Shown here in pieces: positions 14,560 to 35,526 of a DNA stretch of 64,000 bases; position 1 is the first letter of the stretch, and each line of letters opens with the position of its first letter. The stretch spans positions 1,302,001 through 1,366,000 of the forward strand of contig CP102281.1 in assembly GCA_025150425.1 (NCBI GenBank). Direction: 5' to 3'. Made by a program: the position numbers and the translations under genes. The stretch is from [Eubacterium] siraeum. GTDB lineage: Bacteria > Bacillota > Clostridia > Oscillospirales > Ruminococcaceae. Below the pieces are notes generated by a model. That model ran no database searches. It was not told the origin of the DNA and was given only the letters and a program-made list of their open reading frames with translations.

Positions 14560-16299
14560 ATGTCAAGATTTGAGATAAGAGATAAGTTTTATTTGGACGG
14601 GAAACCGTTCAAGGTAATTTCGGGTTCAATACATTATTTCCGCACCGTACCGGAATATTGGCAGGACAGGCTTGAAAAGCTCGTAAATATCGGATGCAAT
14701 ACAGTTGAAACGTATATTCCGTGGAATTTTCACGAAACTGAAAAAGGAAATTTCAATTGGAACGGAATGCATGATATCTGCCGTTTTATAGAGCTTGCCG
14801 ATAAACTCGGACTTTATATGATTATCAGACCGTCGCCGTATATCTGTTCAGAGTGGGAGTTCGGCGGATTGCCTGCTTGGTTGTTAAAAGACCGTTCAAT
14901 GCGTCTGAGATGCTCCTACAAGCCGTACCTTAATGCAGTGGACAGTTATTACAGCGTTCTTATGCCAAAGCTTGCACCTTATCAGATTGATAATGGCGGC
15001 AATATAATTATGATGCAGATTGAAAATGAGTATGGCTATTACGGAAATGACACGTCATATCTTGAGTTTCTGAGAGATACTATGCGTAAGTATGGCATAA
15101 CTGTACCGTTTGTGACATCTGATGGGCCGTGGAGTGAATTTGTTTTCAAATCAGGTATGGTTGACGGTGCATTGCCGACCGGCAATTTCGGCTCTTCTGC
15201 TGAATGGCAGTTTGGTGAAATGCGGCGTTTTATCGGAGAAGATAAGCCGCTCATGTGTATGGAATTCTGGAACGGCTGGTTTGACGTCTGGGGCGAAGAA
15301 CACAATATCACAGCACCTGAAAAGGCAGCTCAAGAACTTGATATTCTGCTCAAAAATGGCAGTATGAATTTCTATATGTTCGAGGGCGGAACAAATTTCG
15401 GGTTTATGTCCGGAAAGAACAATGAGAAAAAGACAGGCATAGTGACATCGTATGATTATGATGCGCCCTTGACAGAAGATGGTCGAATAACCGAAAAATA
15501 CGAAAAGTGCAAAGAGGTGATTTCTCGTTATACCGATATAAATGAAGTCCCGCTTACAACACAAATAAGACGTCTGGAATACGGAGAAATCCGATGCACA
15601 GCCAAAACCGATCTTTTCAGCACACTTGACAGTATCTCAGACCCAGTAAAGTCGGTGTACCCGCTGAGCTTTGAGGAACTGGACAGCTATTACGGTTATG
15701 TTCTTTACAGATTACACATCAGGGAAAACGAAACAGTCAGCACTGTGAGATGCGAAAATGCCGCAGACAGAGTACAAGGCTTCAGAAACGGCAAGTATGC
15801 GTTTACGGCCTTTGCCGAAACGATAGACGAACAGTTTGAGCTTGCTGAAAAATCCGCAGGCGGAACAACAGACCTACTTGTTGAGAACATCGGCAGAGTT
15901 AACTTTGGCACAGGACTTGAGTGCCAGCACAAGGGCGTTCTCGGCGGAATAAGAATTAACGATCACAGGCAGTATGGATTTGAAATGTTCACACTTCCAC
16001 TTGATGAAAATCAGCTTGACAGAATAGACTATAACCGTGGTTACAATGACGGTGTACCGGCATTCTATAAATTTGAATTTGAAATAAGTGAAACCGCTGA
16101 TACATTTCTGGATACCGATGGCTTCAGAAAGGGTGTTGCGTTTATTAACGGATTCAATCTCGGCAGATTCTGGAATATAGGCCCTCAGAAAAAGCTGTAT
16201 ATTCCGGCTCCGCTTCTGAAAAAAGGTAAAAATGAAATAGTTATTTTTGAAACCGAAGGAAACAGCGCAGACAGCATCACTTTATCCGATAATAACTGA
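14560..16299 (+). CDS. GH35 beta-galactosidase, cytoplasmic
   Basis: A 579-residue glycoside hydrolase family 35 enzyme without signal peptide, hydrolysing terminal beta-galactosyl residues. The N-terminal TIM barrel begins with the family block FKVISGSIHYFRTVPEYW. The acid/base is Glu157 in QIENEYGYYG and the nucleophile Glu235 in MCMEFWNGWFD, both intact. C-terminal beta domains (about 340-579) include the FINGFNLGRFWNIGPQKKLY motif usual for the family. RBS AGGAGGG precedes the ATG. Together with the exported GH59-like enzyme it suggests outside cleavage followed by import and inside hydrolysis of galacto-oligosaccharides. No transporter gene is adjacent. The last 29 codons are part of a 104-bp tandem duplication whose second copy lies after the stop. 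Confidence 0.93.
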   Translation: MSRFEIRDKFYLDGKPFKVISGSIHYFRTVPEYWQDRLEKLVNIGCNTVETYIPWNFHETEKGNFNWNGMHDICRFIELADKLGLYMIIRPSPYICSEWEFGGLPAWLLKDRSMRLRCSYKPYLNAVDSYYSVLMPKLAPYQIDNGGNIIMMQIENEYGYYGNDTSYLEFLRDTMRKYGITVPFVTSDGPWSEFVFKSGMVDGALPTGNFGSSAEWQFGEMRRFIGEDKPLMCMEFWNGWFDVWGEEHNITAPEKAAQELDILLKNGSMNFYMFEGGTNFGFMSGKNNEKKTGIVTSYDYDAPLTEDGRITEKYEKCKEVISRYTDINEVPLTTQIRRLEYGEIRCTAKTDLFSTLDSISDPVKSVYPLSFEELDSYYGYVLYRLHIRENETVSTVRCENAADRVQGFRNGKYAFTAFAETIDEQFELAEKSAGGTTDLLVENIGRVNFGTGLECQHKGVLGGIRINDHRQYGFEMFTLPLDENQLDRIDYNRGYNDGVPAFYKFEFEISETADTFLDTDGFRKGVAFINGFNLGRFWNIGPQKKLYIPAPLLKKGKNEIVIFETEGNSADSITLSDNN

Positions 16300-16419
16300 A
16301 TTTATGTAAGCCTCTGCTTCTGAAAAAAGGTAAAAATGAAATAGTTATTTTTGAAACCGAAGGAAACAGCGCAGACAGCATCACTTTGTCCGATAATAAC
16401 TGAATTTATGTAAGCCTCT
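16212..16419 (+). repeat. 104-bp tandem duplication of the GH35 3' end
   Basis: Bases 16212-16315 are repeated directly at 16316-16419 with one visible difference (CTTTATCC versus CTTTGTCC). The unit contains the last 29 codons with the TGA stop plus 16 bases that include the 5' arm of the terminator stem. Translation stops in the first unit, so the protein is unchanged and the second unit is untranslated. The near identity points to a recent slippage or recombination event. Confidence 0.97.
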
Positions 16420-16441
16420 GCTTTTTTGCAGAGGCTGTTTT
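16413..16441 (+). terminator. Terminator of the galactosidase operon
   Basis: AGCCTCTGC (16413-16421) pairs with GCAGAGGCT (16428-16436) around a T6 loop, followed by GTTTT. Because of the tandem duplication an orphan copy of the 5' arm also lies at 16309-16316. Confidence 0.85.
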
Positions 16442-25458: not shown

Positions 25459-26598
25459 ATGAACAGATTTCTGAAACGTGCGTGGGCGGAGATTGACCTT
25501 GACGCACTTGAGCATAATTATAACGAGATAAAAAAACTCGCAAAGGGCAAGGATATACTTGCCGTTGTTAAAGCCAACGCTTACGGTCACGATGACAAGG
25601 CAGTCTGCCTTAAATTGCAGGAGCTTGGTGTGAAGTATTACGGTGTTTCTAATCTTTGGGAGGGTGAAAAGCTCCGCTGTCACGGAATTACCGGTACTAT
25701 CCTCACATTCGGATATACCGATGAGGATTATTTCGATGAACTTCTCGAATACGGGATAACCCAGACGGCAGGAAGCGTTCAGTATGCAAAGCAGCTCAGC
25801 GATTACGCTGTAAGCAAGGGAGTAAAGCTCCCTGTGCATATCAAAGTGAATACCGGTATGACCCGTGTAGGAATTGACTCACAGCAGGAAATGCTTGATA
25901 TTCTTGCTATGCCCGGACTTGACTGCAAGGCCGCATATACTCACTTTGCGGCGGCTGACAGTCTTGACCCGTCAGATGTGGAGTATACCGACAGACAGCA
26001 GGAAAAGCTGATGAAGATAGCAAAAGACAAGGGTCTTCTTATCCATTCGCAGAACAGCGGCGGAATAATCTATCACGGCGATTTCGGCGGAGATATAGTC
26101 CGTGCCGGTGTTATACTGTACGGTCATTACCCTAACTATCCGCTTGAAGTGCCGTTTGATATGAAAAGTGTGATGACGGTAAAATCGGTTGTTTCTCAGC
26201 TTAAAACAATTCCCGCAGGTACGCAGATAAGCTACGGCAGAACATATACCGCCGAAAAGGAAATGACGGTCGCCGTTATACCGATAGGATACGCTGACGG
26301 ATATTTCCGTGATTTCAGCTCCAAGGGAAAAATGCTTATAAACGGCGTGCTGTGCAACGTAGTCGGCAGGGTCTGCATGGACCAGACTATAGTTGATGTA
26401 AGCAATGTGCCGGATATTAAAACAGGCGATATAGTTTATGTTTATTCCGATAAATGCAGGGAAACAAGCGTAGATTACAATGCGTCGCTTATTGATACCA
26501 TAGGATATGAGCTTACCTGTGCGGTTGCTCTGCGTATTCCGAGAGTTATCATCGAAAACGGCAGAATAAAGGAAGTAGTCCGTTACGGGCTTATATAA
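25459..26598 (+). CDS. alr: Alanine racemase
   Basis: A 379-residue PLP-dependent alanine racemase making D-alanine for peptidoglycan. The cofactor lysine is Lys38 in AVVKANAYGHD. The second catalytic residue is the Tyr in IGYADGYFRDF (near residue 274). NTGMTRVGID and GRVCMDQTIVDV are further family blocks. Length is normal and the start has AAAGAGG 8 bases upstream. It is divergent from the LCP-like gene, both being cell-envelope functions. It ends 23 bp before a terminator hairpin now separated from its T-run by an inserted element. Confidence 0.96.
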   Translation: MNRFLKRAWAEIDLDALEHNYNEIKKLAKGKDILAVVKANAYGHDDKAVCLKLQELGVKYYGVSNLWEGEKLRCHGITGTILTFGYTDEDYFDELLEYGITQTAGSVQYAKQLSDYAVSKGVKLPVHIKVNTGMTRVGIDSQQEMLDILAMPGLDCKAAYTHFAAADSLDPSDVEYTDRQQEKLMKIAKDKGLLIHSQNSGGIIYHGDFGGDIVRAGVILYGHYPNYPLEVPFDMKSVMTVKSVVSQLKTIPAGTQISYGRTYTAEKEMTVAVIPIGYADGYFRDFSSKGKMLINGVLCNVVGRVCMDQTIVDVSNVPDIKTGDIVYVYSDKCRETSVDYNASLIDTIGYELTCAVALRIPRVIIENGRIKEVVRYGLI

Positions 26599-26621: not shown

Positions 26622-26656
26622 AAAGCCGTGAGTTATAAGAAGATACTCACGGCTTT
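26622..26656 (+). repeat. Left copy of a duplicated terminator hairpin (no T-run)
   Basis: AAAGCCGTGAGT (26622-26633) pairs with ACTCACGGCTTT (26645-26656). All 35 bases recur at 27170-27204 with one difference. Here the hairpin is followed by CAGTTTGTC rather than Ts, so it has lost its terminator tail. Confidence 0.9.
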
Positions 26657-27169
26657 CAGTTTGTCAATAAACCGATTATTATTAAACCCCACACAGCAAA
26701 ATATATCGCCACCACCGCTTAAAACAATTTCCGTACCAACAGGGTATTAATAGTTTCGTGAGTATACCGGTGCAACTGCACTGACATTAACCTTTCAAAA
26801 AAACGCCACTAACCTGAGATATATGTACTAACCTGCGGACGTGTAGCGTTAAGCGTTCCTGATTTGACAGGATATACAATGTTAAGGTGGTTATTCGAGT
26901 TCCGCTAACACCCCGACGGGGTGTGGGTATGGGTAAGGAAAGAGGGAGCCAAGAGGGAGAAAACCTAAGGGACAGGGAGAGGGGCTGTCAAGTCCCTTGT
27001 CCTGATCCCTTTGGTTGTCTCCCTCTTACATATTGACAGGTGTACCTATTCGAATAGCGAACCCGAGAAGTGCTGTCCGACAAAAAGAACTATCGGTAGC
27101 TTGCTATCATAGTCAAAGCTGAACGATATAATAGAAGCACATCAAATATATGACTTTTCCTATAAGCAG
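26657..27169 (+). mobile_element. Terminator-linked repeat element, copy 1 (about 513 bp, non-coding)
   Basis: This stretch matches 34941-35498 almost from end to end, with long identical blocks. These include GCGGACGTGTAGCGTTAAGC, CACCCCGACGGGGTGTGGG and CCCGAGAAGTGCTGTCCGAC. The ends form weak inverted repeats. Inside are a CACCCC-GAC-GGGGTG hairpin, a CAGTGCA/TGCACTG hairpin and a long imperfect stem (GAGGGAGAAAACC with GGTTGTCTCCCTC). No frame longer than about 50 codons is credible. It is flanked by two copies of the alr terminator hairpin. A non-autonomous mobile element or a structured non-coding RNA gene are both possible. Confidence 0.75.
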
Positions 27170-27207
27170 AAAGCCGTGAGTTACAAGAAGATACTCACGG
27201 CTTTTTT
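27170..27207 (+). terminator. Right copy of the duplicated hairpin, functional alr terminator
   Basis: AAGCCGTGAGT (27171-27181) pairs with ACTCACGGCTT (27193-27203), followed by TTTTTG. This copy keeps the T-run and is probably the original alr terminator, displaced by about 550 bp. Confidence 0.85.
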
Positions 27208-34700: not shown

Positions 34701-34732
34701 AATAAGCGGCGGATTCAAACAATCCGCCGCTT

Positions 34733-34905
34733 CAGTCTGTCGATAAACCTTTGTGTTTTCTGAAAATGGGGTCGCAGGGGCGTAGCCCCCGGCAGGGTCT
34801 AGGGGCGGTAGCCCCAGCAAAATAGCCCCTTCCCACAGGGAAGGGGTTTGGGGTTAGGGATAGAGAATTCGCACTATCTTATAAAAAACAGACTTTTTCT
34901 ACAAT
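34733..34905 (+). mobile_element. Short terminator-linked repeat element (about 173 bp)
   Basis: Inserted between two copies of the hairpin AAGCGGCGGATT-CAAAC-AATCCGCCGCTT (34704-34732 and 34909-34937). The left end reads CAGTCTGTCGATAAACC and the right end CTTTTTCTACAATCTG, both shared with the neighbouring long element. The right end is roughly the inverted complement of the left. The interior is different: GC-rich hairpins GGGGCGTAGCCCCC, GGGGCGGTAGCCCC and CCCCTTCCCACAGGGAAGGGG. No coding potential. Confidence 0.7.
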
Positions 34906-34940
34906 CTGAAGCGGCGGATTCAAACAATCCGCCGCTTCAG

Positions 34941-35498
34941 ACTGTCGAAAAACCGGTTATTATTAAATCCGTACCATTAAACATATCGCCAACACCGCCT
35001 GAAACACTTTCCTTACCGACAAGGAATTAATATTTTCGTGAGTATATCAGTGCAACTGCACTGACATTGACTCTTCAAAAAAACGCCACTAACCTGAGAT
35101 ATATGTACTAATATGCGGACGTGTAGCGTTAAGCGTTCCTGCATCGACAGGATATACAATGTTTAGGTGGTTATTCAAGTTTAGCCAACACCCCGACGGG
35201 GTGTGGGTATGGGTAAGGAAAGAGGGAGCAAGAGGGAGAAAACCTAAGGGACAGGGAGAGGGGCTGTCAAGTCCAGCGGAGCTTTAGCGGAGTGCACGAG
35301 CCTTGCGTAAGCGAGGCTCAGACTTGTACCTGATCCCTTTGGTTGTCTCCCTCTTTCAGATCGACAGGTGTACCCACTCGAATAGCGAACCCGAGAAGTG
35401 CTGTCCGACAAAAAGAACTATCGGTAGCTTATTATCATAGTCAAAGCTGAACGATATAATAGAAGCACCTTAAACAAAAGCCTTTTTCTACAATCTGA
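34941..35498 (+). mobile_element. Terminator-linked repeat element, copy 2 (about 558 bp)
   Basis: Nearly the whole length matches 26657-27169. It carries an extra stretch of about 54 bp (35275-35328, AGCGGAGCTTTAGCGGAGTG...) inside the loop of the long GAGGGAGA stem. Ends: CAGACTGTCGAAAAACC at the left and CTTTTTCTACAATCTG at the right. The right end reversed and complemented matches the left in 13 of 17 positions. The hairpin AAGCGGCGGATT...AATCCGCCGCTT lies on each side (34909-34937, 35499-35526). Non-coding. Confidence 0.75.
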
Positions 35499-35526
35499 AG
35501 CGGCGGATCTAAACAATCCGCCGCTT
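35499..35526. terminator. Hairpin serving the YkgJ-like gene (third copy at this locus)
   Basis: AAGCGGCGGAT (35499-35509) pairs with ATCCGCCGCTT (35516-35526), 2 bp from the stop codon of the minus-strand gene. No T-run on either side. With copies at 34704 and 34909 it seems to descend from one bidirectional terminator between the convergent glycosyltransferase and YkgJ-like genes. Confidence 0.55.

Follow-up and report, generated by a model that had tools for sequence, protein, structure and literature searches.

Behind the alanine racemase gene of [Eubacterium] siraeum, about half a kilobase of DNA lies between two copies of a terminator hairpin. This arrangement raises the question of whether the hairpin belongs to a mobile element or to its target and, in the latter case, how an insertion could double a complete stem-loop. 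The locus was analyzed in a stretch of 64,000 nucleotides (the window; GCA_025150425.1, contig CP102281.1, positions 1,302,001 to 1,366,000, forward strand) and in the genome from which the window was taken (hereafter its own genome; 2.69 Mb, 2,694,742 bases in one contig).

An element in the alr terminator

The features of the alr locus, in window coordinates, are as follows.

25459 to 26598, + strand: alr (alanine racemase), a 379-aa open reading frame, the gene whose terminator was hit
26622 to 26656, + strand: left copy of the target hairpin, 35 bp, parted from its T-run by the insertion
26657 to 27169, + strand: 513-bp MITE of the 510-bp body family, placed by BLAST, end pairing, and alignment
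26657 to 26671, + strand: left terminal inverted repeat, 13/15 to CAGNYTGTMGAAAAA
27155 to 27169, − strand: right terminal inverted repeat, 12/15
27170 to 27204, + strand: right copy of the target hairpin, followed by the T-run

We take the reading frame to be alr from its naming in an earlier note on this DNA and from sequence recognition rather than from a family search; its product is 92% identical to the orthologue in the relative G060. As that note had described, the hairpin recurs as a direct repeat, 548 nt apart and with one mismatch, and the T-run is kept by the right copy alone, the left copy running straight into CAGTTTGTC. An ORF scan of the 513-bp element in the window found no reading frame of at least 80 aa inside it. 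When the 513-bp stretch was compared with its own genome by BLAST, 56 pieces were recovered. The body is also present in G060, and it was not found in the 40 relatives searched, a set that does not include G060.

The body had been said to match a second locus where the flanking hairpin has a different sequence and is again duplicated. Both statements are borne out: the match is 81% over window positions 34936-35499, and the second locus has three copies of its own hairpin around two tandem elements, arranged as follows.

34704 to 34732, + strand: hairpin AAGCGGCGGATTCAAACAATCCGCCGCTT, copy 1 of three
34733 to 34908, + strand: 176-bp MITE with the same ends and another body
34909 to 34937, + strand: hairpin AAGCGGCGGATTCAAACAATCCGCCGCTT, copy 2, common to both elements
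34938 to 35497, + strand: 560-bp MITE, also of the 510-bp body family, with an insert in its middle
35498 to 35526, + strand: hairpin AAGCGGCGGATTCAAACAATCCGCCGCTT, copy 3, with two mismatches

Shared ends define a family of MITEs

The earlier note had overlooked the terminal inverted repeats, the fact that these ends also occur on other bodies, and the copy number of the element. The shared 15-bp terminal inverted repeats CAGNYTGTMGAAAAA were the basis for finding at least 59 MITEs of 151-638 bp in the genome. These 59 were drawn from 310,279 of the 2,694,742 bases, around BLAST and terminal-repeat matches, and were picked on the score of the 15-bp ends; seven of them, including the window element, have an end-score sum below 27 and were retained solely for having a repeat, and overlapping candidates were ranked partly by repeat score. 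One pair, at 2130743-2131097 of the genome, is probably composite, its end pairing being doubtful.

The MITEs fall into size classes of 150-180 bp (23 elements), 220-250 bp (9), 300-320 bp (5), 350-390 bp (6), and 500-640 bp (16). The end consensus agrees on both sides, and the ends are imperfect inverted repeats of each other. In a side-by-side alignment inspected by eye, the conserved part runs from CAG to CTG, and the majority of copies whose ends are intact are bordered on both sides by a hairpin of their own. The pattern CAGTYTGTMGAAAAA was found, within one mismatch, at 100 sites in the genome as opposed to 5 for the reversed pattern. Bodies that differ while their ends agree are the pattern expected of MITEs mobilized by one transposase.

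Some loci in relatives (L138, L143, L144, L150, L167, and L185) consist of the end sequence, ∼15-20 nt, and then the reverse complement of the end, together a hairpin of ∼46 bp. These double-end hairpins are possibly a minimal element or a repeated end.

The flanking repeats have the length of the hairpin

A locus-specific direct repeat of 19-35 bp (median 27) flanks 39 of the 59 MITEs, and repeats of at least 7 bp flank 49. When the set is restricted to elements chosen on end score only (sum at least 27), repeats of at least 19 bp are present in 32 of 52. As a control, the left flank of one element was paired with the right flank of another; a repeat of at least 19 bp was obtained in 2 of 3422 such mispaired flanks as compared with 39 of 59 true pairs, which excludes chance as their source.

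All but one of the 39 long repeats include a stem-loop with a stem of at least 6 bp. The length of the repeat follows that of the hairpin (r = 0.91, slope 0.89), and in 39/39 cases the boundary of the repeat is the foot of the best stem, with 0-4 unpaired bases on its 5' side and 0-2 bases on its 3' side. Random windows of equal length reach the median hairpin score of the repeats in 0.17% of cases and their weakest score in 38%. Another 10 of the 59 MITEs lie at sites that lack a strong hairpin and have short repeats of 7-15 bp (25 of the 3422 mispaired flanks reach 7-18 bp). The last 10 have no repeat by the criterion used; four of these have hairpins on both sides (one diverged pair and three different pairs), four on a single side, and two on neither. 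At the copy at 1293604 of the genome (L069, ∼889-1550), the direct repeat takes in ∼82 nt of sequence upstream of the hairpin. The element is followed by an IS200-like tnpA reading frame, recognized by eye.

The sites of the long repeats lie mostly just behind genes. An open frame of at least 240 nt that points at the element and ends within 150 nt of it is found at 37 of the 39 hairpin-repeat MITEs, 16 of which have such a frame on both sides, whereas random positions in the same stretches gave 251/600 and, for both sides, 20/600 in the same test. The 8 bases behind the right copy contain a mean of 3.9 T and the 8 bases before the left copy a mean of 4.6 A, a modest bias of the kind that terminators on either strand have.

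This location is what one would see if long duplications of variable length were made anywhere and insertions in terminators survived as the least harmful, that is, if selection rather than recognition accounted for the sites. Long duplications of variable length have been described for IS1549 and IS1634, and the varying length of the duplications here, as well as the short ones at sites without a strong hairpin, fit such a proposal. However, survival at harmless sites gives no reason for both cut points to coincide with the base of the stem, as is seen at every long repeat, or for repeat length to follow hairpin length as closely as found here. In addition, the transposases of the autonomous elements described below score far higher to IS1182 than to IS1634. 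We therefore regard selection without recognition as improbable and favor a target that is recognized as a stem-loop.

Two orthologous sites have one hairpin when empty and two when filled

The hairpin might instead be the element's own end, as in IS200/IS605-like elements. Both ends abut a hairpin in most copies, as this proposal predicts. On the other hand, the hairpins of elements that share a body are unrelated, and where the element is missing from the orthologous site, its hairpin is still present. Two sites were compared directly. The first lies in the window.

16412 to 16436, + strand: empty site with a single complete hairpin AAGCCTCTGCTTTTTTGCAGAGGCT; G060 has a MITE here between two copies

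The second is at 1220278-1220452 of the genome, where a 175-bp MITE is flanked by AGGGCAGTGCCGAAACACTGCCCT on either side; the orthologous place in G060 lacks the element and carries this hairpin once. The match is clean on one side, and on the other it resumes after ∼0.97 kb of extra sequence in G060. The comparison of these two sites does not tell the direction of the change, that is, gain or loss of the element or in which species. Just upstream of the first site, the window has a 104-bp tandem duplication (∼16214-16421), the first unit of which ends in half a hairpin copy.

Had empty sites already contained two hairpins, no duplication of the target would have taken place; a single hairpin was present at both orthologous empty sites. 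Nor, in the comparisons made, is the same hairpin found at every match in other genomes, as would be the case if it were part of the element. The proposal in the earlier note that the hairpin goes with the locus and not with the element thus stands, and we find a hairpin that serves as the element's own end hardly conceivable. The hairpin is a target-site duplication, and its length follows the stem-loop of the target.

Other sites add to this picture. At 632589-633101 of the genome and at the syntenic place in G060 there are different MITEs, each between its own pair of hairpins. At 1191814, the element adjoins a hairpin of which there is no second copy; the corresponding place in G060 has a single hairpin. 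The site behind alr was compared in 13 relatives out of 14 loci, one with an incomplete match being left out. In G060, the closest relative at alr among the genomes searched, alr is followed by a strong hairpin of other sequence without an element, and a script listed two weaker stems further on. The element's end sequence stands right behind the hairpin after alr in L248 (G081) and L251 (G085), the far end being visible in L251 only; ends at this place in two other species suggest that some terminators, such as the one behind alr, may be preferred targets.

At the site of L232, an autonomous copy in G265 (see below), a script listed one hairpin of other sequence in G365 and a strong hairpin plus a weaker stem in G366; in G364 and G358, for which the script gave no hairpin, visual inspection showed one, the sequence of G359 is masked, and G360 has one flank in the stretch. 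The alr site of G060 and the L232 site give weaker support for duplication of the target, as the hairpins at the empty places differ in sequence.

Autonomous elements with the same ends encode an IS1182-family transposase

Complete elements of ∼1.5 kb with the same ends were found in other members of the same taxonomic order. Three of their proteins were scored against NF033551 (IS1182 family), and all three passed, with 400-405 bits at a cut-off of 270. In the ISfinder table, the direct repeats of the IS1182 family reportedly range from 0 to 60 bp. A stem-loop target, which has been reported for some IS1182 members, was also seen in these autonomous partners: 13 distinct autonomous copies with a hairpin repeat of 20-35 bp were identified when 54 loci were scanned, a scan in which weak end matches, paired by chance, account for some of the pairs listed without a repeat.

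The clearest series comes from G265, which has eight 1526-bp copies with a listed identity of 100%. Perfect hairpin repeats of 20, 21, 22, 26, 30, and 33 bp flank six of the seven copies for which both flanks are available. The seventh has two different hairpins, one of which is also found beside the eighth copy at a contig end (L227 and L234 share this hairpin); this fits an exchange between the L227 and L234 copies or a mis-join.

A panel of named genomes was also analyzed, in which 32 of 66 loci were tested (34 were dropped beforehand, mostly as partial matches or at contig ends) and 28 of the 32 had both ends. A hairpin repeat was present in 14 of these 28 copies, including records of Claveliimonas bilis, Acetobacterium wieringae, Gemmiger, Flavonifractor, Pseudoflavonifractor, and Oscillibacter. 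The remainder comprised 10 copies with different hairpins on the left and right, two at a contig end, and two that have a strong hairpin at just one of their ends. Judged by title, the 10 discordant records are MAGs or bins in nine cases and unclear in one, and the copies with both flanks that come, likewise by title, from cultured strains all have the repeat (6/6). Discordant hairpins could arise when copies recombine, when an element transposes within a single molecule, or when an assembly is faulty. This panel and the scan of 54 loci overlap, in that L352 and L197, whose contigs are equally long, appear to be the same element.

Exchanges of this kind bring up the possibility that an element lands beside a terminator and that the second hairpin is acquired later through recombination, gene conversion, or slippage. 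The common hairpin of L227 and L234 is an example of exchanged flanks, and the direct repeat of the 1293604 copy reaches beyond its hairpin. Against later duplication stand the exact repeats at six of the seven flank-complete G265 copies and the empty sites with a single hairpin. Moreover, the G265 copies are near-identical and have therefore moved recently, and later copying would not be expected to respect the foot of the stem on each side of an element that had only just moved. A later origin of the second hairpin is accordingly very unlikely, and duplication at the time of insertion is preferred.

Based on these results, the window element is short and without a transposase gene (as checked for reading frames in the 513-bp element), it has terminal inverted repeats and a target-site duplication, and it shares its ends with an autonomous IS. 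It is very probably a non-autonomous MITE, one that would be mobilized in trans by an IS1182-family transposase.

The helper and the distribution of the ends

Searches of the element's own genome found no IS1182-type transposase, and a profile search of this genome with PF13751 likewise found none; because no such transposase was found there, the helper of its copies is a putative one. A PF01609 gene at 242916-243722 was considered as the helper and dropped, since the 3.8-kb locus has no end match above 12/15. A search of viral contigs with the product of this gene gave no relative. In same-genus relatives, pieces of the transposase lie near the same terminal repeat (L188, L189, and L323).

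Among 71 genomes of the genus, the exact end pattern was far above the reversed control in some (for example, 57+57 as compared with 1+0 in G074) and had no match in 33. Many ends are present in G074, G081, G024, and G060, in which no IS1182-type transposase was matched. Given many ends without a detected transposase, many MITEs of the genus may therefore be relics whose helper has been lost or is not present; the MITEs seem to outlive their helper or to use another one.

The 510-bp body

Across 12 copies (window positions 26790-27140 and relatives), the 510-bp body has invariant blocks and a mean column identity of 81%. RNAalifold found changes on both sides in 8 of 97 pairs, 5 of them in one long hairpin. 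Together with the hairpins on its two sides, the window copy has a much more stable fold than 20 shuffled sequences (z = −9.8), a score to which the flanking hairpins add. These data hint that the body is a structured RNA. Good folding is, however, common among MITEs, and the two arms of a long inverted repeat can covary for other reasons.

In the window, Rfam at gathering scores returned two tRNAs only, with no match to the 510-bp body. The site in a terminator had prompted us to consider the body as an intron, a reading that was then set aside. Below-threshold Rfam matches of the body were to microRNA models on its long hairpin and were taken as chance. Group IIC introns also prefer terminator stem-loops; they are retroelements not known to have terminal inverted repeats or target duplication, whereas the element here has both.

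Comparison with known systems

The earlier note had stated that insertion with duplication of a whole stem-loop is not a known behavior of a named element. This needs to be qualified, as the partner transposases belong to the IS1182 family, for some members of which palindromic targets have been reported in reviews of Siguier et al. as cited elsewhere (PMC4923244, PMC5678879), and a pathway with this outcome had already been drawn. What holds is that we did not find whole-hairpin duplication described as an observed outcome in the portions of the open-licence literature available to us; ISfinder entries, which lie outside that scope, may hold such repeats.

The closest systems are IS1272 and TnSha1 of staphylococci, which are likewise assigned by name to the IS1182 family and enter stem-loops that share no primary sequence, several of them terminators (PMC5678879, PMC4923244). 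IS1272 has 16-bp terminal inverted repeats (PMC5678879). Furi et al. reported that TnSha1 and IS1272 enter hairpins, terminators among them, and that part of the target is deleted (PMC4923244). For IS1272, Wan et al. proposed attack at the 3' feet of the stem-loop, by which the hairpin is removed, and drew duplication of the whole stem-loop as a hypothetical pathway b in their Fig. 13; they also state that descriptions of the IS1182 family had given no detailed data on palindromic targets (PMC5678879). For IS1272 and TnSha1, the hairpin is reported to be replaced or partly deleted with no target-site duplication, whereas here it is duplicated whole. Target replacement of the IS1272 type does not describe the present elements, the hairpin being duplicated in 39 of the 59 MITEs and in the 13 distinct autonomous copies. 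The elements described here behave like the other branch of the scheme of Wan et al. and would presumably share its extruded target and its chemistry.

Within the family, ISCaa15 is listed with 4-bp repeats (PMC3196728), and a 2025 paper, in the part available to us, reports that IS1182-related transposases act with or without target duplication and recognize a sequence or a DNA structure (PMC12056078). Bacterial MITEs, like the elements here, are short and intergenic and have terminal inverted repeats, direct repeats, and a related IS acting in trans; none with a whole terminator hairpin as the direct repeat is described in the available portion of that source (PMC10969869).

Proposed mechanism and its consequences

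We consider it highly probable, for the explanation as a whole, that an IS1182-family transposase joins the ends of the MITE at the feet of a stem-loop and that the hairpin is duplicated as a result. DDE transposases normally cut the two target strands a fixed distance apart, and repair of the gaps gives a short duplication of fixed length. In the mechanism proposed here, the target would usually be a terminator-like hairpin behind a gene, with the stem-loop extruded and its two feet close together. The transposase would join one transposon end to each strand, at the 5' foot, such that the whole stem-loop lies between the joining points. Repair synthesis would then copy the stem-loop and leave a complete hairpin on each side of the element. 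The duplication would be as long as the hairpin (19-39 bp seen) and not of fixed length, with 7-15 bp at some sites without a strong hairpin. We infer the catalytic steps, the extrusion of the hairpin at joining, and the mobilization of the MITEs by an IS1182-type transposase.

Two consequences can be read from the window. The distal hairpin behind alr keeps the T-run, and the terminator has therefore been moved and not destroyed. In addition, the target is doubled by an insertion, so that a second one can follow, as in the tandem array at 34704-35526.

A broader proposal, which we put forward tentatively as possible though somewhat short of probable, is that, in a clade of IS1182-type transposases, the secondary structure of the target determines how long the duplication becomes, that each jump copies a complete terminator and adds one target so that arrays grow, and that the 510-bp body may, in addition, encode a structured RNA under selection. 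If this is true, a complete terminator would still serve the upstream gene from the far side of the element, and each jump would raise the target number by one. That one element in one genome makes duplications of 20 to 33 bp, each matching its hairpin, is expected if the hairpin is extruded at joining; natural insertion sites may thus record which DNA had adopted a hairpin or cruciform in the cell. The elements would be cases in nature of a pathway that had been drawn as hypothetical in the work on IS1272, and they show a way for a mobile element to enter the ends of genes without removal of the terminator.
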